NCBI GenBank assembly: GCA_021802105.1
Contig: JAKAAW010000005.1
Location: 1 to 41,454, forward strand
DNA from: Nanobdellota archaeon
GTDB lineage: Archaea; Nanobdellota; Nanobdellia; Parvarchaeales; Parvarchaeaceae
Reading direction: 5' to 3'
Length of the DNA stretch: 41,454 bases
Both the position numbers and the translations under genes were made by a program. Shown here one piece after another: positions 8,495-32,716 of this stretch. Positions within the stretch are counted from its first letter, which is position 1. Every line of letters begins with the position of its first letter. A model generated the notes under the pieces. The model made no database searches, was not told the origin of the DNA, and worked only from the letters and a program-made list of their open reading frames with translations.

Positions 8495-10054
8495 CTATTT
8501 TAAGCTGGTTCTGCCGACTTTACCTGCCGGAGTGGCCACCACCCTTATCGGATCGCCATGAACGTCAATGGTGTCTAGGAAGACCGAGTTGTCCCACAGC
8601 TTCGCTATCCTGACCAGAGCCCTGGACGTCCTGTCATTATCAAGGCTTATGAAGGGCGCGACATCCGCCAACACCTGGTCGTAAGACAGGCCATCGCCGG
8701 TCATTTCCACGTACTTCCTTATGAAATCAGTGTCCTGGACGAGGCTCAGCTTGCCGCCGCTGAAATTGGCTCCTCCCCTTGGTATGTACACCATAGGGAA
8801 GTATGTTTCCAAGCCGAAAAGAAGGCCTACCTTGAAGTTAACTACGTCCTCATTCGTTATCTCCTTTATCTGCTTTGCGAACTCTTCCACGTCCGCGGGA
8901 TCGAGACCCAGCCACGTCATGAACTCCTTATCCTTATCGCTGAGTTCTTCGACCTTTTCCTGTAGGAACGACCTGACGAAGTTCTTGTCTGCGTACAGGA
9001 ACACGAAGTCAAAGTCCGTCTTGAATTTAGTGACGTCAAGTATCTTCTCCAGTCCTTTCATTGCTTTAGAATCGAATTGTTCCTTCTCCGACTCCGGAAG
9101 CTGCTCGTAGAGGAACCCGAACCTGCCCTTGTTCCATTTGTCCTCTATGTACTTGAACAGCCTGAACCCCAGCGCGTACGGCAGCTGTCCGTCGTGCTTC
9201 GGGTTTCCGATCGAATATATCATCTCCAGCATCTTTAGGGACACAGCCTTGTCCTTCTCCCCGTAAATGGCGTACTTTTCCTGTACGAACGTGGCGAAAC
9301 CCTCGTGCATTATTTTTACCCGGGAGGTCCTGTTTATCTGGGAGATATCATACACCATGTCGAACACCTCCTTTTTCCAGTCGCCCATCTTGACGTTTTC
9401 CTTTAGGAAACCGAATACGTCGTATTCGTTGTTCGGAGGTTTGTCCTTGGAGATGGAATAATAAGTGTCCTCATCGCTTGGTTTCAGGTCAGGATACATG
9501 TTTATCAGAGTCGACAGCGTCTTGGCCATATCGTATTCCTTGTCGACTATCGACTCCATGCCATTCTTCCTCAGGTTCCTTGAGTTTATGATCTCCTCTA
9601 GGTTCTTGTACCGCCTGCTGAAAGCGTTAAGCCTGTCCAGATCGTAATCCGCAGTCTTGGCTATGAAGTTTACGTCGTCCATGTGGAGATGGCCGAAGAC
9701 GTGCGCCATGACGCTCTTTATCTCTTCGTCCGTGTCTGACTTGCTTATAAGCGCGATTGTGTAGTTTTTGTCGTCTATAGGATTATAATACTTGTGAAAG
9801 ACCATCTCGTACAGCTTGCCGAGGTTCGACGAGAAGCTCTCCTTCTCCACCCTGTAGGACTGGTAACCGTACCACGTAGGCAGAGGCTCGCTGTATCTCG
9901 CCGCGAACTGGGCCAGCTCGTCTGTGTCTACAAGCCTGAATTCTACGTCACCGAATTCGAGTCCCATATCCTGCATGAACTTGCCAATGTCCCTGGCCAC
10001 GCCGGTGTAGTACTCATGTATATTGCCGTTTTCCCTCGTTATTATCTCGACCAT
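8495..10054 (-). CDS. SpoVR family protein
   Basis: The 519-residue protein has SpoVR hallmarks: 'MAHVFGHLHMDDVNF' (HVFGH at 118-122), 'IMHEGFATFVQEKY' (H250, E251) and 'PYALGFRLFKYIEDKW'. The clustered His and Glu residues suggest a metal site, but the biochemical activity of SpoVR is not established. In bacteria spoVR (ycgB), yeaH and yeaG/prkA form a stress or stationary-phase group. Here it is the last of four genes packed with 2-10 base gaps, starting 2 bases after the YeaH-like stop. Length agrees with the family (about 500 residues). Confidence 0.9.
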   Translation of the reverse strand: MVEIITRENGNIHEYYTGVARDIGKFMQDMGLEFGDVEFRLVDTDELAQFAARYSEPLPTWYGYQSYRVEKESFSSNLGKLYEMVFHKYYNPIDDKNYTIALISKSDTDEEIKSVMAHVFGHLHMDDVNFIAKTADYDLDRLNAFSRRYKNLEEIINSRNLRKNGMESIVDKEYDMAKTLSTLINMYPDLKPSDEDTYYSISKDKPPNNEYDVFGFLKENVKMGDWKKEVFDMVYDISQINRTSRVKIMHEGFATFVQEKYAIYGEKDKAVSLKMLEMIYSIGNPKHDGQLPYALGFRLFKYIEDKWNKGRFGFLYEQLPESEKEQFDSKAMKGLEKILDVTKFKTDFDFVFLYADKNFVRSFLQEKVEELSDKDKEFMTWLGLDPADVEEFAKQIKEITNEDVVNFKVGLLFGLETYFPMVYIPRGGANFSGGKLSLVQDTDFIRKYVEMTGDGLSYDQVLADVAPFISLDNDRTSRALVRIAKLWDNSVFLDTIDVHGDPIRVVATPAGKVGRTSLK

Positions 10055-10056
10055 GT

Positions 10057-11130
10057 TCAGCCCTCCAGCAGCGCGGTTATCGCCGCCTCTATATCGTCTT
10101 TCGTGGCGTCGGCTCCGACGTTGGCAAGCCTTACCTTGTCGCTCTTTTTCGAGTTTATGTATTGCACGTATGAAGACATCCTGGACATATCGTTCAGGCT
10201 GCTGCCTGTCGAGTAGCCTATGTTAAGGTACATGAACTTTGTAGAGTCGGCTATTATGCCGTCGAGTCTCCTGAACAGTTCGGTGTTCTCGCCCTCGAAA
10301 TTATCACCGTCGGATATCTGCAGTACGTAGAGATCGTTCTCGCGCAGGTCTATGCTCTTGAAGAAATTGAGGTCTGTCGGATAAGCCACTCCCATCACCA
10401 TAGAATGTATTATATCCAGAGCCGGCTTGAAGAAGGTCCCTCCGTTCTCGCTGAGGCTAAAGAAATTCTGCTCACCGACTTCCTTGGCACCGTTTGTGTG
10501 GGCTATGTACACCCTGTGAACCTGGTTCTTGTAAGACTCCTCGAGCCATATCGTTATGTAAAGAGATGCTATGTTTGCGATGTCTCCTTTGCCCATCATG
10601 GAACCGCTCGTGTCTTTTACTATGACGAAATAGGCGCTCTTGTCCGGGATCACCGTGTCTTTGGCTATGTTGTACCTTATGTCTTCTTCCTTCACGTCCG
10701 GCCTGAAACCGTACTTTTGATACTCGCCGGATAATAGCTGTCTCTCGAGCATGGAACGCATGGTCTCTTCCTGGTTCTCGTCAAATCCCCTCTTTCCTAT
10801 CATGTATTCTAGCTTCGTGCCAGTCTTCTTTCCCGGTTTAGTGAACAGGAGTCCCCACTTCTTCATCTTGTCAATTATATACTGTTTCGTTATGCCGTAC
10901 GTTACCTGACCGTTTCCCTGGCCCCCCGGGCCTCCCCCGGATCCGTTTCCTCCACCGCTTCCGAAACCATAGGAGTATGATATCACAGGATTCTCCTTAA
11001 CAGGTATGCTCTTGTACACCGTTCCGCCGTTTGCCAGATCGATCAGATTCACCGCATCAATGTCCAGATCGTCGTCTTCGGCTATCTTCTGCTTGTATTT
11101 TCCTTCTGCCGTGTCAAGTTCGCTCGACAT
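10057..11130 (-). CDS. YeaH/YhbH family protein (DUF444, von Willebrand A-like)
   Basis: The 357-residue protein has a Gly-rich linker at about 55-75, characteristic of YeaH/YhbH, followed by a von Willebrand A-like domain whose MIDAS motif 'DTSGSM' is at 173-178. It is somewhat shorter than bacterial YeaH (about 420 residues), mostly at the N-terminus. The family is a conserved partner of PrkA kinases and SpoVR; a metal-dependent adaptor role is inferred from the fold. It sits between the second PrkA-like gene and SpoVR with 2-base gaps on each side, implying coupled translation. Confidence 0.88.
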   Translation of the reverse strand: MSSELDTAEGKYKQKIAEDDDLDIDAVNLIDLANGGTVYKSIPVKENPVISYSYGFGSGGGNGSGGGPGGQGNGQVTYGITKQYIIDKMKKWGLLFTKPGKKTGTKLEYMIGKRGFDENQEETMRSMLERQLLSGEYQKYGFRPDVKEEDIRYNIAKDTVIPDKSAYFVIVKDTSGSMMGKGDIANIASLYITIWLEESYKNQVHRVYIAHTNGAKEVGEQNFFSLSENGGTFFKPALDIIHSMVMGVAYPTDLNFFKSIDLRENDLYVLQISDGDNFEGENTELFRRLDGIIADSTKFMYLNIGYSTGSSLNDMSRMSSYVQYINSKKSDKVRLANVGADATKDDIEAAITALLEG

Positions 11131-11132
11131 AT

Positions 11133-12950
11133 TCAGTTCATATCTCCTATCTCTGGATAATACGCGGGGCCTTCTCTGTATATATTTATCGCTTCCTCTG
11201 TCAGACTGTCCCAGTAGCCGTATTTCTTGCCAAGGAATCCTGAGACGTACTGGTAAAGGTCTGATTTCTTATCACCGAGTCCGTCGAATATCCCCTCATC
11301 CCTTATGACGAATTCCCCCATCGGATTTTTGAAGTAGGAATATCTCAGCAGAGGGTCGAGCTTTACGTTGAACTCCTCACTCGGTATCGCTCTGTCGTCT
11401 TTATAGTACGGCAGGTACTCGTTCAGGACTTCGACATCCATGTACTCCTTCAACTTTATGAGCGCGTGGTCCTCCTCAGGGGTCGTTTTTATCCCCACAT
11501 TGTCATCCAGAGCCTGATTAAGCGTCTTTTCAAGCACGCTCACAGCGGTGCCATAATCTATCCCGTTCTTCTCCGCCAGGAACGACATGACAGCGCTGTC
11601 TACGTCCGTGTTCACGTCGGACACCACCATTTTCCTTATGTAGTCCTTAGCCGTGGCAAAGGCGTCATCAGCCCCGTCGAAAGCGCTCTCATTATTGTTT
11701 ATGAAAGAAAAGATGTCCGTATACCTCAGGTCTGACTTCTCCGAATCCTTGAGGAGAGATGTTATCCTCCTGAAAGACATCCCTTTGGACCAGCCGCTCA
11801 CGTAGGTATCGCCCTCCATTATCAGCGACAGTATTGTATCCTTTACCTGTCTGCTGTAGTTCATGTCTGTCAGGTAAGTCTCAAGAGACCTAGGTATCTT
11901 CGAGAAATCAAGACTGTCCAGTTTGCCGGAGTCGTAAATATCCAGCGAGTCAAGGACGTATCTTACGCTCTCGTGATTGTAGTCGAGTTCCGTGTCTGTT
12001 ATCCTTGACAGTATGCTGAAGGTGCTGAGGTATCTGAGACTGTTCCTCGCCATTTTCATGAACGGCAGATTGACCCTTTTGTAAAGCTTCTCCTCCTCAC
12101 TGTATGAAAGGATTCTCCTGACCTGCACAGGTATCATCCTTTCCTTAAGCGGCCTGGAGAAGTCCCTATCATCGCTCTTGAGCCTTTCCATGAACTCCTC
12201 ATTACCGTGCAGTATTATCAGCATGTCGAGCGGAATGTTTCCGCCGTTCCTGTCCGATAGCATGTTATCATACAGGTTTATCAGCAGCTGGTAGCTCGCC
12301 TCCGATATGTTTTCTATGTTGCTCTTGTCAGCGCTGAGTATCAATATGCCCCTGTTTGACTTGCTAAGGATCGAGTACAGCCTGTCCTGCAGTTTTTTGT
12401 CCCCAAGCTCTATGTTGTTTGATATGTCCGGAAAGAACTGCTTCACCCCGAGCATCCCGTCCGTATTCTTGTCCGTGCTTACCGCCACTTCGAGCGCGCT
12501 CCTGCATGCATCGCACATCGTGGGCCTAGTCTTCACACCACAGTCGCGCGTTTCGGATATGCCCAGGCTCTCCAGTTTCAGAGGTATCTTTGACCTGAGT
12601 ATGTTGTGCGGGTTTTCTTTGTACTGACACCTTGTACCGTTCACAGACAGGGTGTAGATTCCTCCCGTTTTTAGGACAGCGTCGTAATAGGAGTCTATCA
12701 GGGAGTTTATTATCTCGGTCTTTCCGCTGCCGCTTGGTCCGGTAAGCACAAGTATAGGGATATACCCCAGGCTGGCAGCAAACTTCGCCTTGAAGAGGGC
12801 TTTCTTGACATTCTCCCTTACCTCCTGCAGCCCGAGAATGTTATTGTCGAGCCTGTTGTCCTCGTTTGAGGACAGGTAAGAGTACAGTATCCCAGAGACT
12901 GTCGTCTCCTCCTCATTCAGCATGTCTGTAAGACTCTTTTCTTTTGTCAT
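11133..12950 (-). CDS. PrkA-like AAA+ protein, second paralog
   Basis: The 605-residue P-loop protein has Walker A 'GPSGSGKT' at 71-78 and a Walker B-like 'RGILILSADKSN'. A cysteine set C108, C137, C146 and C149 ('CDACRSAL') falls where bacterial PrkA has 'CPmhe' and 'LCPxCR' stretches, and may bind zinc. 'MLIILHGNEEFMERL' and 'RPLKERMIPVQVRRI' match the AAA+ sensor and Arg-finger regions of PrkA ('NteEw', 'DR'). Bacterial PrkA was described as a Ser/Thr kinase, while some work describes an AAA+ protease-like role. It is distinct from, and lies 10 bases after, the longer PrkA gene; both probably work with YeaH and SpoVR. Confidence 0.82.
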   Translation of the reverse strand: MTKEKSLTDMLNEEETTVSGILYSYLSSNEDNRLDNNILGLQEVRENVKKALFKAKFAASLGYIPILVLTGPSGSGKTEIINSLIDSYYDAVLKTGGIYTLSVNGTRCQYKENPHNILRSKIPLKLESLGISETRDCGVKTRPTMCDACRSALEVAVSTDKNTDGMLGVKQFFPDISNNIELGDKKLQDRLYSILSKSNRGILILSADKSNIENISEASYQLLINLYDNMLSDRNGGNIPLDMLIILHGNEEFMERLKSDDRDFSRPLKERMIPVQVRRILSYSEEEKLYKRVNLPFMKMARNSLRYLSTFSILSRITDTELDYNHESVRYVLDSLDIYDSGKLDSLDFSKIPRSLETYLTDMNYSRQVKDTILSLIMEGDTYVSGWSKGMSFRRITSLLKDSEKSDLRYTDIFSFINNNESAFDGADDAFATAKDYIRKMVVSDVNTDVDSAVMSFLAEKNGIDYGTAVSVLEKTLNQALDDNVGIKTTPEEDHALIKLKEYMDVEVLNEYLPYYKDDRAIPSEEFNVKLDPLLRYSYFKNPMGEFVIRDEGIFDGLGDKKSDLYQYVSGFLGKKYGYWDSLTEEAINIYREGPAYYPEIGDMN

Positions 12951-12960
12951 TACGAGCCAC

Positions 12961-15156
12961 CTACTTCTTACTTGTGTATACAGATATCGCTACGTTCGCG
13001 CATTTCTCACAGTAACCGAATTTGTTCTTTAGAGTGTCTTTCAGACCCGAGTCCGACATCATTATGGCGGCGCTCGAAGCCGACTTGGGCTTTACGCTCG
13101 CGATTATTCCGTCTATAAGGTGGGGGAACTCCTCGAGTAAGTTGTCCCCGACTTTCCTCAGCGTTTCAGGGTCCGTCTTGCCACTGTAATTGTACTTTAT
13201 ATGGTTCTGTATAGCCTTCTTTATCCCATCCGGCGGGACCTTGGCCACTAGATTCACCTGATCTAGGAAGTCCTTGTCCACGTTCTCGAACACGCCGTTG
13301 AGAAGGAACCTGTCTTTGTTTTCGGCAAGCATGTACGAATGTATCACGTAGGTAGACACGAGTCTGTTGAGAGTCTCCTCGCTGTTTGTGTAAGCTATAG
13401 CGACGTCTTTGAACAGCTCTAGCCTGTACTTCTCAAAGGCTGAGTTTATTATTGCTTTGCCGTCCTCGGATGCGGAGGATATCCTCTGCTTTGTAAGGTC
13501 CTGAAGACCCTCCATCGTGTTAAGAAGATCCTGCACGTATTCCGTTCCTCCTCCGCCCAGTATCGAGTCAAGGCACGGTTCAGAATAGGCTTGTTTCTTC
13601 ACACCGTCGGCAGCTTCGGCCTTCCTAGAATAATTAAGAAGGGTTATCACTGAGTCCCTGACCGCTCTGTATGGAAGGCCGAACCTCACGCCCTCCGTTA
13701 TCTCGAGAAGGGATTTTGAATTGGCTTTCCTCTGAAGCTCCTCGGCCGTCAGCTGGTTGTCACCTTTCTTGTTTCCATTGTACATCTCCGCTTTCTCCAC
13801 CAATGGTATATTTGGCTCCTTGTCGAGGCCGGCCATCACCCATATATATTTCATAAGCGTCAGAAACCTCGGCGAATAGTGGAAGCCCAGGTTGTCGCTG
13901 TTCCTGCTGAAAATGGAGTCGAGGGCCTTCTCCGCGTCCGAAAGCCTGAGTATTGACTTGTACAGTATCGGATACGTTCTTCCCATAAAGTAATCCTTTA
14001 TGTTCGTGGCTATCTTTGAATAGTCGTCGAGGTTTGTGGTCCCCATGAACACGGAGTCTATCGGCTCAGTGAAACCGTTTGGAAGGTGTATCTGCCTGTC
14101 CTGTATGAGGTCCAGGAATGTATTCAGGAAAGATTCGGGCGCCTTCTGCACCTCACTGAACACCACCATCCCTCCAGCGGGAGAAGGCATGTTCTGTCCT
14201 CCTGCTATTCCGTAGTTTATGACAAGGGGGCTGTCCGTATCCGCGTCCACGAACTTTATGAGTTTGTAGCTGACTTTTCCGCCGAAGACCGCCTGGTAAT
14301 CAAGGTTCTTCTCGCTCACGGCGACCTGCGGCCTCGAGCGCATGAGCACCTCGTTGTTGCTGGCCTCCTCTACGACCACCGCCTTCTCCATGAAAGAGCG
14401 TATCTTCTTCTCGTCCGGCGTGCCTTTTGATGTCACGAATATCTCACGAAGAGAGTCAAGAAGGGCGTTCTTGACCTTGTCTATGGAGGAGCTCTCAAGT
14501 CTCTTCTCGAGCTCTATCTTTCTCCACTTATCATTCTTTCCGGTCAGTCCGCCGTTTATCTTCTCTATCGTTTCTTCTAGTTTCTTTTCGCCTTGGCTCT
14601 TGCTGCCCTCGGGCCCTTTCACGAACAGGTATATTGCCTGTCCTATATTCGTACTGTATCCCAATCTTATCTCGTTCAGCGAACCGAGGTAATAGTCCCT
14701 GCTCATGTCGCTGGTATCGTTCGTGAGGGAGGTTATCCTGGCCTTGAATTTCTCGAACTGGTCCTCATCATCAAACAGGTTCTTCACGTTATCCGAGAAA
14801 GGGTACAGTTTGAGCTTGTAAAGGGCGCCTTCCTCCGTCTGCCTGTATTCTATAAGCGGTTCCACAAGGATATTCGTGGTCTCTGTCTTTCCAGTACCTG
14901 TCTGGCCTATTAGAAGAGCCATCTTGCTCCTGAATTCTGGATCGTGCGTGCCTGCTTTTATTATGTCCATCAGCATGTTAACGTTCTCGTCAAGACCAAA
15001 GAGCCTGTCTTTTACAAAATTCCATTTTCCGTCTTCGTCCCTGCCTTTTCTATCGACAGCGGCGTATAGAGCCTGATGCGCGTTAAAGAACCACGAAGGG
15101 TGCTTTACAGCCTCGTCTAAGAACTCCTCTAGGGAAAACCTCTTCTTCAATGCCAT
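12961..15156 (-). CDS. prkA: PrkA family AAA+ serine protein kinase, long paralog
   Basis: The 731-residue protein opens the four-gene operon. Walker A 'GQTGTGKT' is at 84-91; the Walker B region is 'GGMVVFSEVQKAPESFLN', followed by 'LIQDRQIHLPNGF' and 'DSVFMGTTNLDDY', all corresponding to PrkA AAA+ elements. A C-terminal 'CEKC' pair (716/719) could be half a metal site. It lacks the central cysteine cluster of its neighbour, so the two paralogs have diverged. The predicted role is ATP-driven phosphorylation or remodelling of stress targets. A strong Shine-Dalgarno GGAGGT sits 8 bases before the ATG, downstream of a TATA box at about 15205. Confidence 0.88.
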   Translation of the reverse strand: MALKKRFSLEEFLDEAVKHPSWFFNAHQALYAAVDRKGRDEDGKWNFVKDRLFGLDENVNMLMDIIKAGTHDPEFRSKMALLIGQTGTGKTETTNILVEPLIEYRQTEEGALYKLKLYPFSDNVKNLFDDEDQFEKFKARITSLTNDTSDMSRDYYLGSLNEIRLGYSTNIGQAIYLFVKGPEGSKSQGEKKLEETIEKINGGLTGKNDKWRKIELEKRLESSSIDKVKNALLDSLREIFVTSKGTPDEKKIRSFMEKAVVVEEASNNEVLMRSRPQVAVSEKNLDYQAVFGGKVSYKLIKFVDADTDSPLVINYGIAGGQNMPSPAGGMVVFSEVQKAPESFLNTFLDLIQDRQIHLPNGFTEPIDSVFMGTTNLDDYSKIATNIKDYFMGRTYPILYKSILRLSDAEKALDSIFSRNSDNLGFHYSPRFLTLMKYIWVMAGLDKEPNIPLVEKAEMYNGNKKGDNQLTAEELQRKANSKSLLEITEGVRFGLPYRAVRDSVITLLNYSRKAEAADGVKKQAYSEPCLDSILGGGGTEYVQDLLNTMEGLQDLTKQRISSASEDGKAIINSAFEKYRLELFKDVAIAYTNSEETLNRLVSTYVIHSYMLAENKDRFLLNGVFENVDKDFLDQVNLVAKVPPDGIKKAIQNHIKYNYSGKTDPETLRKVGDNLLEEFPHLIDGIIASVKPKSASSAAIMMSDSGLKDTLKNKFGYCEKCANVAISVYTSKK

Positions 15157-17655: not shown

Positions 17656-18087
17656 TTATCCGCACGGAAGAGCTACAGATGATGCGCCGCCGGCGGTGTA
17701 ATAGTAACCTCCTACCGAAGAATTCGCGCCCGTTGTGTTGCACATGAAGAGAACGCTCCCTTTCGACAGCGTGAAGTTGGAGGTGTATGCGCTTTCACCT
17801 GCTACGTAACTGCCTAGCCTGCCGGAAATGTTGTTGAAAACGTTGTAGCCTAATCCTGGGCTTCCACTTGATGCGGTTACGGTATACAGGCACTTTCCAG
17901 GAATGCTGTAGTTTATATAAGTCAGAGCGCAGACAGCCGGCGCGGATGTAAGTCTAGGTATGCCTCCTCCCAACCCGAACAAGGAGAAATGAAAAACCGT
18001 ACTTATTATAAGAAAAGCCATCCCAAGGAAAATGATCAGTATTATTATTGTCTTGACCTCTTCAGCCGTCGTTCCCTTTCTGTTCAT
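17656..18087 (-). CDS. Membrane-anchored exported protein, prepilin-like N-terminus
   Basis: I place the start at 18087, where the upstream stop and this ATG form TAATG; codons further upstream in frame belong to the neighbouring gene read in another frame. The 143-residue protein begins 'MNRKGTTAEEVKTIIILI', with K-G before a stretch containing Glu and then one hydrophobic span (residues 12-35), similar to class III signal peptides. The outer part has about four Cys and several NxS/T sequons ('NYS', 'NIS', 'NFT', 'NTT'). It is the last gene of a five-gene operon. Function unknown; an export-side pilin-like or envelope component is inferred. Confidence 0.7.
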   Translation of the reverse strand: MNRKGTTAEEVKTIIILIIFLGMAFLIISTVFHFSLFGLGGGIPRLTSAPAVCALTYINYSIPGKCLYTVTASSGSPGLGYNVFNNISGRLGSYVAGESAYTSNFTLSKGSVLFMCNTTGANSSVGGYYYTAGGASSVALPCG

Positions 18088-19562
18088 TATGTCACCGCGC
18101 AAACGTATATCTGATTTCTGCCCAAGAAATTGCTCTTTGCGAGCCCCAGCTCTGAAGGTGCCTGAGATATCGCGGTGAGTATAGACTCGCCGCACTGAGA
18201 CAATCCCGTCGTGGTAAGCAGCGCAGTGGACACGTACTGCATACCTGTTGGCGCTATGTACTGGTTGCAGAGGGAATTTGACGTGCATCTGCCGTAAAGA
18301 TATCCAGCAAGTGCCGATGAACCAAGACCTACCAATCCTGGATTTTTACCGAAGGGAGTCCTTAGTCCGAGCGCACCATATGTGAGCAGGGCCCTGCTGC
18401 ACTCATATTCTATACCACTCGTAGGGTAATTATTCAGGAAAGACTCTGGAGCACATTCGCTCGGCAGGTTTATCCACTGCGGAGGAAGCCGGCTCCCCAC
18501 GAAAGAATTGAGATAAACGATGTATAGCTGTGCCTTGTTTATTCCTTTGGTAGAGTTTGGAAGAACCAGACTGGCTTTACCACTAGTCTGGTTTTTGTAA
18601 CTGTATATCATGTTTATGCCAGGGGCAAGGTAATCGAAGTACGAAACGCTCACAACGGAATCGTTGTTTACTGGTTCTGTAAGGGTACATGACGGAGGAG
18701 AGACATAGGATTGAGTAGTAGGATCGTAATTGACATTGCAGACGTAGTCTCCGCTGAGGTTCTTCGCGCAGAAATTGGTGTATGACTGTGTGCAGCTGCC
18801 TATCTGTCCGGTGCTGTTAGTGCATGCCCCTACAGCGCTGTTGAATGAACAGCCCTGTGCAGAATCACACAGGTAAGGCTGCAGAAGATTGGCCGCGGTT
18901 GTCTGCGTCGTACTACTTGTAAGAGGTATGCTATCTGGAGAATAACCGGAGTACGTCTTTGAGTACCCTGCCTGCGTAGAACACTTAAAATAATTGCTGC
19001 TGCTCGCTATGCACGTGTTTGGTGCGTTAAGATTGCACGTGAACCCTTCCTGATAATTAGGACATGCCTCCTGCGCCGTATGGTTAAGGCAGCTGACCTG
19101 CGTAGTATAGGCAGTGCTCTGAAGATAACTTGTAAGGTTAGCTATGGTTATGTTCTGTTTTGTGTCTATGTTGACTATTCCGCACAGGCCAGGGGAATTT
19201 TGAAGCACGTCAAGTCCTTCGTTGGCCCCGTACTGGTACCAGCAATCTGCCAGTGAGGTAAGGGTCCCTGAGAATATCTGACTACTGGTCGATCCGGAGG
19301 TATAGGTCTGCGCCGAAGCAGAACATCCCAAAAGAGGCGGAGTACCTACGGTCTGGGAGATGCTTGAGGATAAGCAGAAAAACTGGGTCACACATAGGCC
19401 ATTATAAAAGAAATTTCTTATCTGAGAACTCAAATAACACGTGGACGAGTTTGTAAAGCCGAATCCGAAGAGCAGAAAATACGCGAACACGAGGACTATG
19501 GTGAAGATGAATATTACTGAGAGTATTATGAATACAAACTCCTCGCCAGCGGTCTCTGCCAT
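18087..19562 (-). CDS. Large Cys-rich exported protein with N-terminal anchor
   Basis: The 491-residue protein has one hydrophobic span at about 10-36 and a long outer domain rich in Ser, Thr, Asn, Tyr and Gln with 24 cysteines, many in sequence runs such as 'CDSAQGCSFNSAVGACTNS'. There are many N-glycosylation sequons. An even, high Cys count with an extracytoplasmic location implies extensive disulfide bonding. The C-terminus 'NQIYVCAVT' resembles the end of the neighbouring 19597-20505 product ('DRVFVCVTN'). I do not recognise a family. It overlaps the next gene by one base and follows the previous one by 34 bases. Confidence 0.75.
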   Translation of the reverse strand: MAETAGEEFVFIILSVIFIFTIVLVFAYFLLFGFGFTNSSTCYLSSQIRNFFYNGLCVTQFFCLSSSISQTVGTPPLLGCSASAQTYTSGSTSSQIFSGTLTSLADCWYQYGANEGLDVLQNSPGLCGIVNIDTKQNITIANLTSYLQSTAYTTQVSCLNHTAQEACPNYQEGFTCNLNAPNTCIASSSNYFKCSTQAGYSKTYSGYSPDSIPLTSSTTQTTAANLLQPYLCDSAQGCSFNSAVGACTNSTGQIGSCTQSYTNFCAKNLSGDYVCNVNYDPTTQSYVSPPSCTLTEPVNNDSVVSVSYFDYLAPGINMIYSYKNQTSGKASLVLPNSTKGINKAQLYIVYLNSFVGSRLPPQWINLPSECAPESFLNNYPTSGIEYECSRALLTYGALGLRTPFGKNPGLVGLGSSALAGYLYGRCTSNSLCNQYIAPTGMQYVSTALLTTTGLSQCGESILTAISQAPSELGLAKSNFLGRNQIYVCAVT

Positions 19563-19596
19563 AATTAGTTAAACCATCCTTTTCTTTTATAGCCTC

Positions 19597-20505
19597 TTAT
19601 CTGGATGTGGAGTTGGTCACGCACACAAAAACCCTGTCCTGTGAAAGCATCATTGAATTCAGCAGAGTGCCGCAGAAATGAACGAAGTAATCTCCGCACA
19701 CGCCTATCGTGCCCTGCGTCTGCAGACCCGCGTTCCCATTTGAAAGTGAGCTTACTGTGTTGTACGCCGCCTGTGAAGTCTGGTTCTGATAGCTGCATGT
19801 TTGTCCTGCTGCAGGCTGCTGGAACTGCGAGACGTACCCGCATTGGGACTGGAATGAGAGTGAGCAGTATGCGCCGGTCGGAGGAGACTTTGAAGGGTAA
19901 CCGAAATATTCTATTATGTAAGTCGAACCGTTCAATACACTGGAGGATGGTTCAGAGTATCTGGCCGTGCCGCCGCTGCCGTTTGTTATGAAAACCATCT
20001 GCATGGCATTTCCGTTGTTAGGATAGTTTTTATTTATATAATCTATTATCTTGCTGTAGTTTATCAGACCAGACGTGTATATTGTCCCGGAATAGCACTC
20101 GAAGACCCCGTTTACGCTGCTGCTTTTCAGTATCTCATCTCCCGCGTTTGCATTAGCACCCTGGAAAAGATTAAAACACGATGCCGCCTTCGCGTATATC
20201 TGCGCCGATACGGACGATACCGCCTGGCCATTCACGTTTGACGGCTGTATGCACGCGCTCTGGACCTGTGACGACGCCTGAGGGCTGTTCACGAATGGAT
20301 TAGTGCCGAGTATCGGCTGGATAAAGTACGTCACGGGAAACAGGAAATTGTTCACGACGTTGTACTCTGCGAACGCGAAATAACACTTAGCGCCGAAGGT
20401 GGCGGCTCCTATGGATGAGATGAACGCACCGCTAAATACGACGAGTATAACCCCTGCTATTACCGCCAGCATCACATCAACTATGGTCAACAGCATCCCT
20501 TGCAT
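19597..20505 (-). CDS. Cys-containing exported protein with N-terminal anchor
   Basis: The start is placed at the ATG at 20505 ('MQGMLLTIVDVM'), which overlaps the stop of the upstream 53-residue gene as TAATG and has GGAGGCGG nearby. The longer in-frame extension upstream overlaps that gene and is Arg/His-rich, unlike a signal. The 302-residue product has a hydrophobic segment at about 5-35 and an outer domain with 10 Cys and several sequons. The last 45 residues ('IGVCGDYFVHFCG' then 'SQDRVFVCV') parallel the end of the 18087-19562 product, suggesting a shared C-terminal module. No known family recognised. Confidence 0.72.
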   Translation of the reverse strand: MQGMLLTIVDVMLAVIAGVILVVFSGAFISSIGAATFGAKCYFAFAEYNVVNNFLFPVTYFIQPILGTNPFVNSPQASSQVQSACIQPSNVNGQAVSSVSAQIYAKAASCFNLFQGANANAGDEILKSSSVNGVFECYSGTIYTSGLINYSKIIDYINKNYPNNGNAMQMVFITNGSGGTARYSEPSSSVLNGSTYIIEYFGYPSKSPPTGAYCSLSFQSQCGYVSQFQQPAAGQTCSYQNQTSQAAYNTVSSLSNGNAGLQTQGTIGVCGDYFVHFCGTLLNSMMLSQDRVFVCVTNSTSR

Positions 20506-20666
20506 TATACACCGCCTCCGAATATGTTCGAGAAGAATTGGAAAGGAGAGCCTCCGGCAGAGCTTGCGTAGTATAGCAGATATATTATGAGGATAGCGAC
20601 TATCGCGGATGCCATGACTATTATCATCCAGATGATTCTCCACTCAACGCTTCCTTTCTTGTTCAT
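20505..20666 (-). CDS. Small single-span membrane protein (53 aa)
   Basis: This short gene starts at ATG 20666, one base after the upstream stop, and ends TAA at 20507-20505, sharing a base with the next ATG. The product begins 'MNKKGSVEWRIIWMIIVM', has one hydrophobic span (residues 11-31) and a Gly/Phe-rich tail ending 'FSNIFGGGV'. The K-K-G start followed by Glu and a hydrophobic stretch resembles a minimal prepilin, and its first residues echo the 'NRKGTTAEE' start of the last gene in the operon. Perfect overlaps on both sides support it as real. Confidence 0.72.
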   Translation of the reverse strand: MNKKGSVEWRIIWMIIVMASAIVAILIIYLLYYASSAGGSPFQFFSNIFGGGV

Positions 20667-20667
20667 A

Positions 20668-21189
20668 TCATTGACCTATGCAAGGCGGACACCATGGTGC
20701 ATCGCCGGCTATACAGTATGGTACACTTAAATCACAGTTCTGTATCTGCGTTGCATTGTTTGCTACTATTGTGCTATCGGAGCAGCTCATCAGATCGGCT
20801 GTGTTTGATGGGGAGACCACGGCGCAGTTCTGGACAACTTTTGGATAAGCGGACGGATTGGCTATACACGCCTGAACTGCCTGCTGGTTCCCGACACCGT
20901 CCTTGAAGTTAATATAATAACACCAGTTTGTTATGCATGTCTGGTTCGCAGTGGCCTGATTGTAACAAGCGTTAGTCAGGTAGCACCTGAAGAGAGGAGT
21001 CCCTTCCAGCTTGTTTGGGTAACCATATCTGGCCTGCGTGAACTGGTTATAAAGAAGCCCTCCGTTGGTGCTATCGCATCCGACCGGGAAGATAGATGAG
21101 AAGTTCTGGTAAAAAATGAAGAATATTACCAGTGCGACCACGAGCGAAAAGACAACCTCGAACCATATAAATTCTTCCGCACTAGCCAT
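20668..21189 (-). CDS. Cys-rich exported protein, first gene of the operon
   Basis: The 173-residue protein begins 'MASAEEFIWFEVVFSLVV' with one hydrophobic span at about 10-30, then an outer domain with 12 Cys arranged in pairs ('CYLTNAC', 'CITNWC', 'CIAGDAPWCPPC'). The start resembles that of the 18087-19562 product ('AETAGEEFVF'), so these proteins may be exported by one route. It opens the operon 20668-17656 and lies 61 bases downstream of the L15e stop. Function unknown; disulfide-stabilised surface protein is inferred. Confidence 0.74.
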   Translation of the reverse strand: MASAEEFIWFEVVFSLVVALVIFFIFYQNFSSIFPVGCDSTNGGLLYNQFTQARYGYPNKLEGTPLFRCYLTNACYNQATANQTCITNWCYYINFKDGVGNQQAVQACIANPSAYPKVVQNCAVVSPSNTADLMSCSDSTIVANNATQIQNCDLSVPYCIAGDAPWCPPCIGQ

Positions 21190-21726: not shown

Positions 21727-22164
21727 CTAACCTGAGACAGAACCTGTTATTGTTATAAGAGGATGCGTCGACGTGTTTGAAGGGGTATAGACTATGTTGA
21801 CCGAGGCTGAGTACGGTTCGCCGAGGGTTATGGAGAGGTTGCACTCGCTGAACTCCAGCGTAGGTACGTAACGTGAAGAGCACACGAAGCCGCTGTCGTT
21901 TATGGCGCCCTGTATGAAATATATGCTCGAGACGTTTATGTTCTCGTTCAGTAGGTTCTGGAATTTTATGTAATAGATGTTAAGGTTGCCGTCATAGCCC
22001 TGCCCCATTACTCTCAGGCCGGCGAAACCGGAGTAGGTTGTCGTCGGGGTCGACACAAAAAGAGAAGGGTACAAAAGGAAAAGAATCGCGAGAGCTGCGG
22101 CTATAAGTATAAGCACTATGCTGTATCCAAGCAGCAGTTCAAGAGTCGCCTGTCCCCTCCGCAT
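21727..22164 (-). CDS. Type IV pilin-like protein (class III signal peptide)
   Basis: The 145-residue protein starts 'MRRGQATLELLLGYSIVL', an archaeal prepilin signal: basic residues, a cleavage site after Gly, Q at +1 and Glu at +5 of the mature chain, then a hydrophobic helix. The outer part has two Cys and sequons ('NVS', 'NLS', 'NTS'), and predicted strands. It should be processed by a PibD/FlaK-type peptidase and assembled or anchored at the membrane. It lies 36 bases downstream of tRNA-Thr and 72 bases upstream of the L15e gene. Confidence 0.8.
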   Translation of the reverse strand: MRRGQATLELLLGYSIVLILIAAALAILFLLYPSLFVSTPTTTYSGFAGLRVMGQGYDGNLNIYYIKFQNLLNENINVSSIYFIQGAINDSGFVCSSRYVPTLEFSECNLSITLGEPYSASVNIVYTPSNTSTHPLITITGSVSG

Positions 22165-24058: not shown

Positions 24059-24595
24059 TCAAACGCCTGCACAGGTCGGTGCGACATCATTTATAGACCT
24101 ACAGATGTAAGTTTTGAGCTGCTGCTCCGCAGTGGCTATGCTGGTAAAACCGCCTATCTTGTAGTACTGTGAATAGATTCCACCTATAAACACCATTGGG
24201 ACTCTGTCTGAAAGAGACGAGAACAGCTGTATAGAACCGGCCGGTGCCTGCACGGAAGAAGGGTCTATATTGTACTGGCTGACATTGAACTTATACGCAC
24301 AAAAATACGGCCCATAGAACTTATTCCCTATCCACGAACCGCCGAAAGCACTTGTGACATTTGTGAAAGCGCTGAGCTCTGACATGCAGCTGGCACAGTT
24401 GTTCCCATAGAACAGTATGTTAGCCGATTTATTCTGGGAGCACAGACCAGATATGTTCTGGAAGGTCTGCTTGAAAGAGTAAAGGTTGTCCAGTGAGTAT
24501 ACCCTTATAAGAAGATAGACACTGAGCACTGCAAAAACCACTATCACGGCTATATAGACATACAGGAGCCTCTTAGCGATCCTAACTCTGTTCAT
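24059..24595 (-). CDS. Membrane-anchored thioredoxin-fold protein
   Basis: The 178-residue protein has an N-terminal span (residues 10-31) and an outer domain with 'NILFYGNNCASCMSELSAF', that is C67-A-S-C70 after a beta strand, as in thioredoxin-like oxidoreductases, and 'RVPMVFIGG' containing the likely cis-Pro. It probably acts outside the membrane in forming or isomerising disulfides. That fits the many Cys-rich exported proteins encoded in this window. It overlaps the upstream secreted-protein gene by 14 bases. Other Cys residues (C52, and in 'YICRSINDVAPTC') may be structural. Confidence 0.72.
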   Translation of the reverse strand: MNRVRIAKRLLYVYIAVIVVFAVLSVYLLIRVYSLDNLYSFKQTFQNISGLCSQNKSANILFYGNNCASCMSELSAFTNVTSAFGGSWIGNKFYGPYFCAYKFNVSQYNIDPSSVQAPAGSIQLFSSLSDRVPMVFIGGIYSQYYKIGGFTSIATAEQQLKTYICRSINDVAPTCAGV

Positions 24596-31132: not shown

Positions 31133-32716
31133 ATGGCTTTAAAGTCACAATCCACTCTCGAATACGTGATGATATATGGATGGGTCATCCTAATAATAGT
31201 CATAGTGGCTGCACTTCTGTATTCCATGGGTATTTTCACGCCAACCGCCGGTGTGGAAAGCACTATAACCGGTTTCGCGCCTTTGCTTGTAACTACACAG
31301 AGCTGCGGCAACGGCGGCATGGAAATCCTCATAGCAAACACACTGGGTTATCCAGTGGAGATTCTTAACGCCACCATTGTCTCCGCGACAGGTCTGCAGC
31401 AGAGTTCCACGGGCAGCATCAACCAGACAATAGGCTTAAACGGGCAGGGGACGCTGGTGTTCTACAACAGCACATGTGATAATTTCGGCGCATTCTATTC
31501 ATCGATAATATACGTTTGGTATTCATACAGCAGCGGTTTCGGAACACAGATTTTAAAGGCTACGGGATCGGTTACAGGCAAAGCGGCTTTACAGGAAACT
31601 GTGAATTTTATTGAGGTAGGTCTGCCCGCCGGAACGCAATGGTACATAAACTACCAGGGGCACACGAAATCATCTACAGCATCGCAGATAACGTTCCTTT
31701 TCTCTGGACTGTCAAGCTTTTACGCTGGAAACGTATCCGTTAACGAGGTAGGTTATTTCCCATCGTTGTTTACAGGTGATGCCGAGAATGCCTCAACGTA
31801 TTACATAGATTACATCCCTGTCCGCGATGTCTATGTCGCAAACGGTGGCAGTAGCACCGTATCCGTTCTTGATCCTTTGACGAGCACTCTCGTTACTAAC
31901 ATAAGCGTATCAAGCAACCCAATAAGTCTAAGTGTGACACCTGACGGCAAGCTGGTATACATTTCTAGCCATGGTTCCGGCAGCGTGATAGCCATAAACA
32001 CTTCGAACAATCTCATAGCCGCAAATATAAGTGTTGGAGTGAACCCTACTGGAATAGCTACAAACTTAATTGGAAGCACGGTGTATGCACTCACTCTCGG
32101 CAACGGGGGGTTATTGCTAAAGATAAACGCATCGACTTATTCCATTATAAGCTCTACAAAGATAGGGGGCAGCCCGCAGGCCCTGGCTATATCTCCTGAT
32201 GACAGCTTGCTGTATGTCGCGGAGCCTGGCACAAATAGCCTTCTAGTAGCCAACGCTTCCAGCATGCAGGCTATACTTTCCATACCAGTCGGAACATATC
32301 CTGACTCCGTAGCTACGTCGCCCGATGGGAGATTCGTATTTGTGGCAAACAACCTGTCAAACACCATATCTGTGATATCTTCACCCTCAGACAGGGTTAT
32401 AAAGAACATATCCGTCGGAACGGGTCCGCGGGCGCTTGCCGCTTCGCCTAATGGGAAGACATTGTTGGTTTCAAACTATTACTCGAATACTATATCAGTG
32501 ATAAACACTACTAGCTTTTCCGTCATAAAAACCGTGCATGTGGGCGCGAATCCTACAGGGATAGCCATACTTCCAGACGCCGCGGAGATCTACGTGGCTT
32601 CATTCGGCTCCAATCTTGTGTCGGTAATGTACTCAGCTAACTACACGATAAAAACGAACATAACGAATTTGAAGAACCCTATGGGTATAGCCGACGCAGC
32701 ATCGAGCAGCATCTAA
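31133..32716 (+). CDS. Pilin fused to a seven-bladed YVTN beta-propeller
   Basis: The 527-residue protein has three parts. Residues 1-155 are a full pilin closely related to the preceding gene: 'SQSTLEYVMIYGWVILIIVI', 'LYSMGIFTP', and an end 'GFGTQILKATGSVTG' matching that gene's terminus. Residues about 158-225 ('VNFIEVGLPAGTQWYINYQG') are a small beta domain seen in surface proteins of acidophilic archaea. Residues about 229-527 hold seven repeats of the YVTN type, such as 'DVYVANGGSSTVSVLDP', 'FVFVANNLSNTISVIS' and 'EIYVASFGSNLVSVMYS', enough for a closed propeller. It is likely a tip or adhesive pilin. Many sequons suggest glycosylation. Confidence 0.85.
   Translation: MALKSQSTLEYVMIYGWVILIIVIVAALLYSMGIFTPTAGVESTITGFAPLLVTTQSCGNGGMEILIANTLGYPVEILNATIVSATGLQQSSTGSINQTIGLNGQGTLVFYNSTCDNFGAFYSSIIYVWYSYSSGFGTQILKATGSVTGKAALQETVNFIEVGLPAGTQWYINYQGHTKSSTASQITFLFSGLSSFYAGNVSVNEVGYFPSLFTGDAENASTYYIDYIPVRDVYVANGGSSTVSVLDPLTSTLVTNISVSSNPISLSVTPDGKLVYISSHGSGSVIAINTSNNLIAANISVGVNPTGIATNLIGSTVYALTLGNGGLLLKINASTYSIISSTKIGGSPQALAISPDDSLLYVAEPGTNSLLVANASSMQAILSIPVGTYPDSVATSPDGRFVFVANNLSNTISVISSPSDRVIKNISVGTGPRALAASPNGKTLLVSNYYSNTISVINTTSFSVIKTVHVGANPTGIAILPDAAEIYVASFGSNLVSVMYSANYTIKTNITNLKNPMGIADAASSSI

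Follow-up and report, generated by a model that had tools for sequence, protein, structure and literature searches.

A window of 41,454 nucleotides from a Nanobdellota archaeon, the whole stretch of DNA analysed here, harbors a five-gene operon whose products we read, with a probability of roughly 0.6, as disulfide-stabilised pilins and minor-pilin-like subunits of a Nanoarchaeota type IV pilus-like machine, encoded apart from the motor genes. The window derives from a 669-kb assembly of a tiny, probably host-dependent organism. All five genes lie on the minus strand and, named after the length of their products in amino acids, follow each other in the transcription order g173 (20668-21189; 12 cysteines), g53 (20505-20666; no cysteine), g302 (19597-20505; 10 cysteines), g491 (18087-19562; 24 cysteines) and g143 (17656-18087; 4 cysteines). 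The successive junctions are a 1-base gap, a 1-base overlap, a gap of 34 bases, which is the largest, and a further 1-base overlap. Coordinates and translations thus confirm the initial annotation in the co-directional arrangement, the lengths, the cysteine counts and the tight packing, and one N-terminal hydrophobic span was found in each of the five products. The proteins had also been described as lacking a recognised family, and profile searches of all five against Pfam, NCBIfam and PHROGs indeed returned no significant match. Elsewhere in the window, a PrkA/YeaH-type operon of this reduced archaeal genome is located on the minus strand at 8495-15156, comprising two PrkA-like AAA proteins and a DUF444 protein beside a possibly SpoVR-like protein of 519 aa.

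The N-termini divide the operon into two groups. A class-III-like prepilin site, K(G/A)-S-V-E-W, precedes the helix of g53, with glutamate at +3 and none at +5; the pattern of [KR][GA] followed by hydrophobic residues is seen in 20/20 orthologs. The pilin-like g143 carries a K-G-type site ([KR][GA]) ahead of the helix in 16 of 18 orthologs, and in 12 of these 16 sites a glutamate occupies exactly position +5 of the mature helix. Judged from these motifs, both products would be cleaved as prepilins. None of the 66 orthologs of g173, g302 and g491 has a K or R ahead of the span, so that these genes have no recognisable prepilin site and the ‘A-E-E’ start does not represent a known one. The earlier statement that several starts are prepilin-like therefore holds for g53 and g143 (K-G/K-A) and fails for the other three, whose helix is either used uncleaved or no longer part of a pilus. 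N-glycosylation sequons are clearly enriched in g143 only (4.4 versus 2.0 in shuffled sequences), which is a weak indication. A further class-III prepilin-like N-terminus (KS-QSTLEYVMIYGW) was noticed on the plus strand at 31133-32716, where it precedes a YNCE-like beta-propeller in the same protein (Pfam, 1.8e-17); this product is a possible pilus-borne propeller adhesin.

Structure prediction for g143 yielded a model with a mean pLDDT of 83.6, consisting of a 33-residue helix (residues 8-40) and nine strands that form an all-beta head. Foldseek matches of this model were mostly generic beta-sandwiches of the Ig/FN3 type with low TM-scores and a best E-value of 6.8e-3. The model agrees with the two-domain archaeal pilin fold described in PMC7347861, a compatibility that falls short of proof. 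The g491 model is of low confidence (mean pLDDT 62.7) and matched none of the solved folds in Foldseek, and a PDB sequence search with the profiles of g143 and g491 gave nothing credible.

The second characteristic of the operon is its cysteine content. An even number of cysteines was counted in 83 of 83 unmasked alignment rows of g491, g302, g173 and g143 orthologs; one g491 row (L143, 12 cysteines) contains a masked stretch and was excluded from this count. The number varies in steps of two (2, 4 or 6 in g143, 12 or 14 in g173, 24 or 26 in g491), the 10 cysteines of g302 are conserved in every row at genus and family level, and at least 14 are invariant over twelve g491 homologs from several families. 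An odd count appeared once among the 19 g143 sequences of a looser ortholog set; the other 18 were even. Since orthologs are related, such counts are not independent, and the evidence lies in the contrast with cytosolic neighbours used as controls, in which even numbers occurred in 8/21 (helicase), 8/16 (galT-like) and 8/17 (p173b) sequences. This pattern suggests actual disulfide bonds in g173, g302, g491 and g143. VKOR is a disulfide-generating enzyme, and its gene is present in the window genome and in nearly all genomes sampled from the same genus.

The link to a pilus-like motor comes from other families of the phylum, where homologs of g173, g302 and g491 are located directly downstream of a TadA/PilB-type ATPase and a nine-span TadC-like protein. 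Two genomes (G056 and G053) show, on one strand, ATPase, TadC, g173-like, g302-like and g491-like genes followed by pilin-like genes of the ‘MKAQGLP’ type, which come after the homologs at several of these TadC loci; in a third (G043), the contig ends early, after ATPase, TadC, a g173-like gene and the start of another superfamily-like gene. HMMs were built from the genus and family of the window alone, with the transmembrane part removed. The trimmed g173 HMM found its top match in the gene right after TadC in L052 (1.2e-12), L055 (3.7e-11) and L104 (2.1e-9), and that of g302 ranked first the gene between the g173-like and g491-like genes in L052 (1.0e-4) and L055 (1.7e-4). First-ranked matches of the trimmed g491 HMM were obtained in L052, L055, L053 and L054 (5.0e-32 to 6.3e-13), together with one in L109 (3.9e-6). 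Because the trimmed HMMs rank genes of the TadC loci first, the homology signal does not stem from the hydrophobic helix. Iterative HMMs of g53 and g143 drifted on that helix and were discarded.

Iterative searching with the g491 family reached the majority of TadC loci with one-span genes downstream; a cysteine soon behind the span and a motif of the C(W/Y)xxxG type recur in most of the sequences added. The protein g491 thus belongs to a phylum-wide superfamily with this core motif. A profile (A9) was built from nine superfamily members of other families, with the genus of the window left out altogether. It detected members in 75 of 141 genomes (66 of 87 genera) and recovered g491 of one same-genus genome (8.6e-5); comparison of helix-free profiles from the g491 side and the other-family side gave 94.6% (E 6.7e-8). 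After the nine training genomes had been set aside, a superfamily member was located within 10 kb of TadC in 40 of 65 genomes, where chance would yield an estimated few per cent (genomes of about 0.4-2 Mb). Within the phylum sample, a member is present in 44 of 60 genomes. Members from other families show a K/R-G/A site in 15 of 23 cases, compared with 8 of 43 background multi-span proteins. For the contig scan, a genus-level alignment was used in place of the phylum-spanning one (A3), whose sequences diverged too far, and tblastn of g491 against plasmids found no match. Paralogy of g302 and g491 was considered, since both have a C(W/F)xxxG-like motif and their C-termini are similar, and since an inclusive iterative HMM pointed the same way; it was dropped, because it was not significant in the profile comparison once the sequences were trimmed and inflated inclusion was avoided. 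Very large one-span proteins, none of them assigned to a family, were also observed at TadC loci of other families (L105:8093-11167 with 1024 aa and 75 cysteines; L108:1340-5083 with 60 cysteines).

The five genes also stay together in relatives, all of which were sampled from one class; the phylum sample brings in no second one. Gene order had been proposed as a check on the unit, and it is kept in the same-genus genomes with examined flanks (Ca. Parvarchaeota MAGs) and largely so in sister genera with different surroundings. Within the genus, the flanks generally comprise SecDF, a CxxC protein, a MinD/ParA-like ATPase, a prepilin-like gene and ribosomal protein L15e. One genome of this genus (L046) has altered flanks and all five genes; in sister genera the flanks have changed, and most of the unit is retained (L045, L048) or the unit is split in two (L044). 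As the unit outlasts changes of its flanks, the linkage of the five genes is more than regional conservation. Runs of four small one-span proteins (about 46-80 aa), many with K-G starts, were observed upstream of a GINS-like gene in several relatives (L049:8223-8868, L051:11341-12016, L033:13293-14026) and between the GINS-like and g143-like genes in L048 (4128-4769); at this site, neither the window nor L032, its closest relative, showed such a run.

Two neighbours on the minus strand of the window are syntenic with the operon. A prepilin-like gene (21727-22164; MRRG-QATLELL) is associated with it and is, by its start and position, at most a candidate part. The product of the second gene (24059-24595) had been taken for an exported thioredoxin fold, a designation that the searches did not back: the exported protein has no match in Pfam, and what it offers is a CxxC motif in 14 of 17 orthologs. 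It is nevertheless a possible oxidative-folding partner.

The window genome itself encodes the parts of a suitable machine on other contigs. Contig C11 carries a TadA/PilB-type ATPase (G000:C11:34047-36275; Pfam T2SSE, 4.6e-18), a TadC (G000:C11:36359-38353; profile E-value 7.4e-180, Pfam T2SSF below the cut-off at 0.0037) and a prepilin peptidase (PF01478, above the cut-off) at G000:C11:15307-15645. The pair of ATPase and TadC is located on a different contig from the operon and has no Cys-rich one-span genes downstream, and therefore the operon is separated from motor genes relative to the arrangement in other families. The same genome has another type IV pilus-like ATPase at G000:C8:6120-9621 (L166), accompanied by two short TadC-like genes. 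With the C11 pair not adjacent and a second ATPase on C8, either motor may serve the operon.

On this basis, the following mechanism can be proposed. The prepilin peptidase would cleave g143, and probably g53, after K-G/K-A, and the TadA-type ATPase with its TadC platform, encoded on the other contig, would lift the cleaved proteins out of the membrane. The products of g173, g302 and g491 would act as disulfide-stabilised accessory subunits, such as minor-pilin-like tip, base or decorating components, whose N-terminal helix stays in the membrane or filament and whose Cys-rich domain is exposed; their disulfides would probably be made by VKOR and the exported CxxC protein. The likeliest role would be to attach the cell to a host or a neighbouring cell, or to make contact with it. 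We infer the assembly into one complex, the use of this particular motor and the host contact. The multi-subunit surface structure held by disulfides that the initial annotation envisaged gains support from the ATPase/TadC linkage of distant homologs, from the even cysteine numbers relative to controls and from VKOR, and loses some by the restriction of prepilin-like starts to two of the five genes.

Separation from the motor genes could also mean that the proteins, anchored in the membrane and rich in disulfides, make up a surface complex of their own (an adhesin or receptor) of pilus descent, for which this lineage gave up the use of ATPase and TadC after the separation. The missing K/R ahead of the span in g173, g302 and g491, set against the sites in most other-family members, would fit such a history; yet g53 and g143 of the same operon still have prepilin sites, and the genome retains ATPase, TadC and prepilin peptidase, and we regard this reading as clearly less probable than the first. 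The operon products could instead be subunits of a pseudopilus-like secretion machine that exports proteins toward a host rather than serving adhesion: ATPase/TadC-type machines are able to drive pseudopili, and several very large Cys-rich one-span proteins, such as the 1024-residue protein of L105, occur at loci of the class. No secreted cargo, outer channel or secretion-specific gene was found, however, and this explanation appears unlikely. That the genes are unrelated exported orphans, adjacent by accident, would agree with the lack of known families and is highly improbable, given that the gene order persists within the genus and in sister genera with rearranged surroundings, and given the renewed grouping of g173, g302 and g491 homologs beside TadC in other families.

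The preferred reading, pilus-like subunits apart from their motor genes, extends earlier work on archaeal pili. Makarova, Koonin and Albers 2016 (PMC4858521) reported a type IV pilus ATPase in nanoarchaea whose cognate pilins were not identifiable, and multiple conserved cysteines in components of one Thermoproteales system. The archaeal type IV pili treated there likewise combine an ATPase and a TadC-like platform with several neighbouring one-span prepilin-like genes and a genomic prepilin peptidase, whereas the operon subunits fall outside every Pfam, NCBIfam and PHROGs family. Uncharacterised signal-peptide proteins beside TadC in DPANN were predicted as diverse pilins in 2019 (PMC6393860, Fig. 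2A), and these ‘dark matter’ islands resemble our loci in that unknown exported proteins next to TadC are read as pilins; the prediction is a general one, the text of that article mentions no cysteines, and the passages compared here name neither such a superfamily nor a relocated cassette. The type IV pilus of Pyrobaculum arsenaticum shares the N-terminal helix, the Ig-like beta head and an intramolecular disulfide, but has one disulfide in one pilin compared with 10-24 cysteines in three accessory proteins here (PMC7347861). For Parvarchaeales, PilA-family pilins have been reported and pili discussed as a route of host contact (PMC10134863, 2023). Within the collection of articles searched, no report of cysteine-rich pili in DPANN was found. 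The idea of DPANN pilins is thus known; to it we add a specific superfamily, linked to TadC across the phylum and marked by a disulfide signature, and a five-gene cassette separated from the motor genes.

The means by which DPANN archaea attach to their hosts and exploit them are a main open question. A Nanoarchaeota-wide contact filament or needle, crosslinked by disulfides, built from a new Cys-rich pilin-like superfamily, driven by TadA/TadC and gripping or breaching the host, is a doubtful extension of our findings. The motor-linked superfamily with even cysteine numbers does provide concrete proteins to be sought in co-cultures, and it may serve as a marker for the annotation of many ‘hypothetical’ genes.
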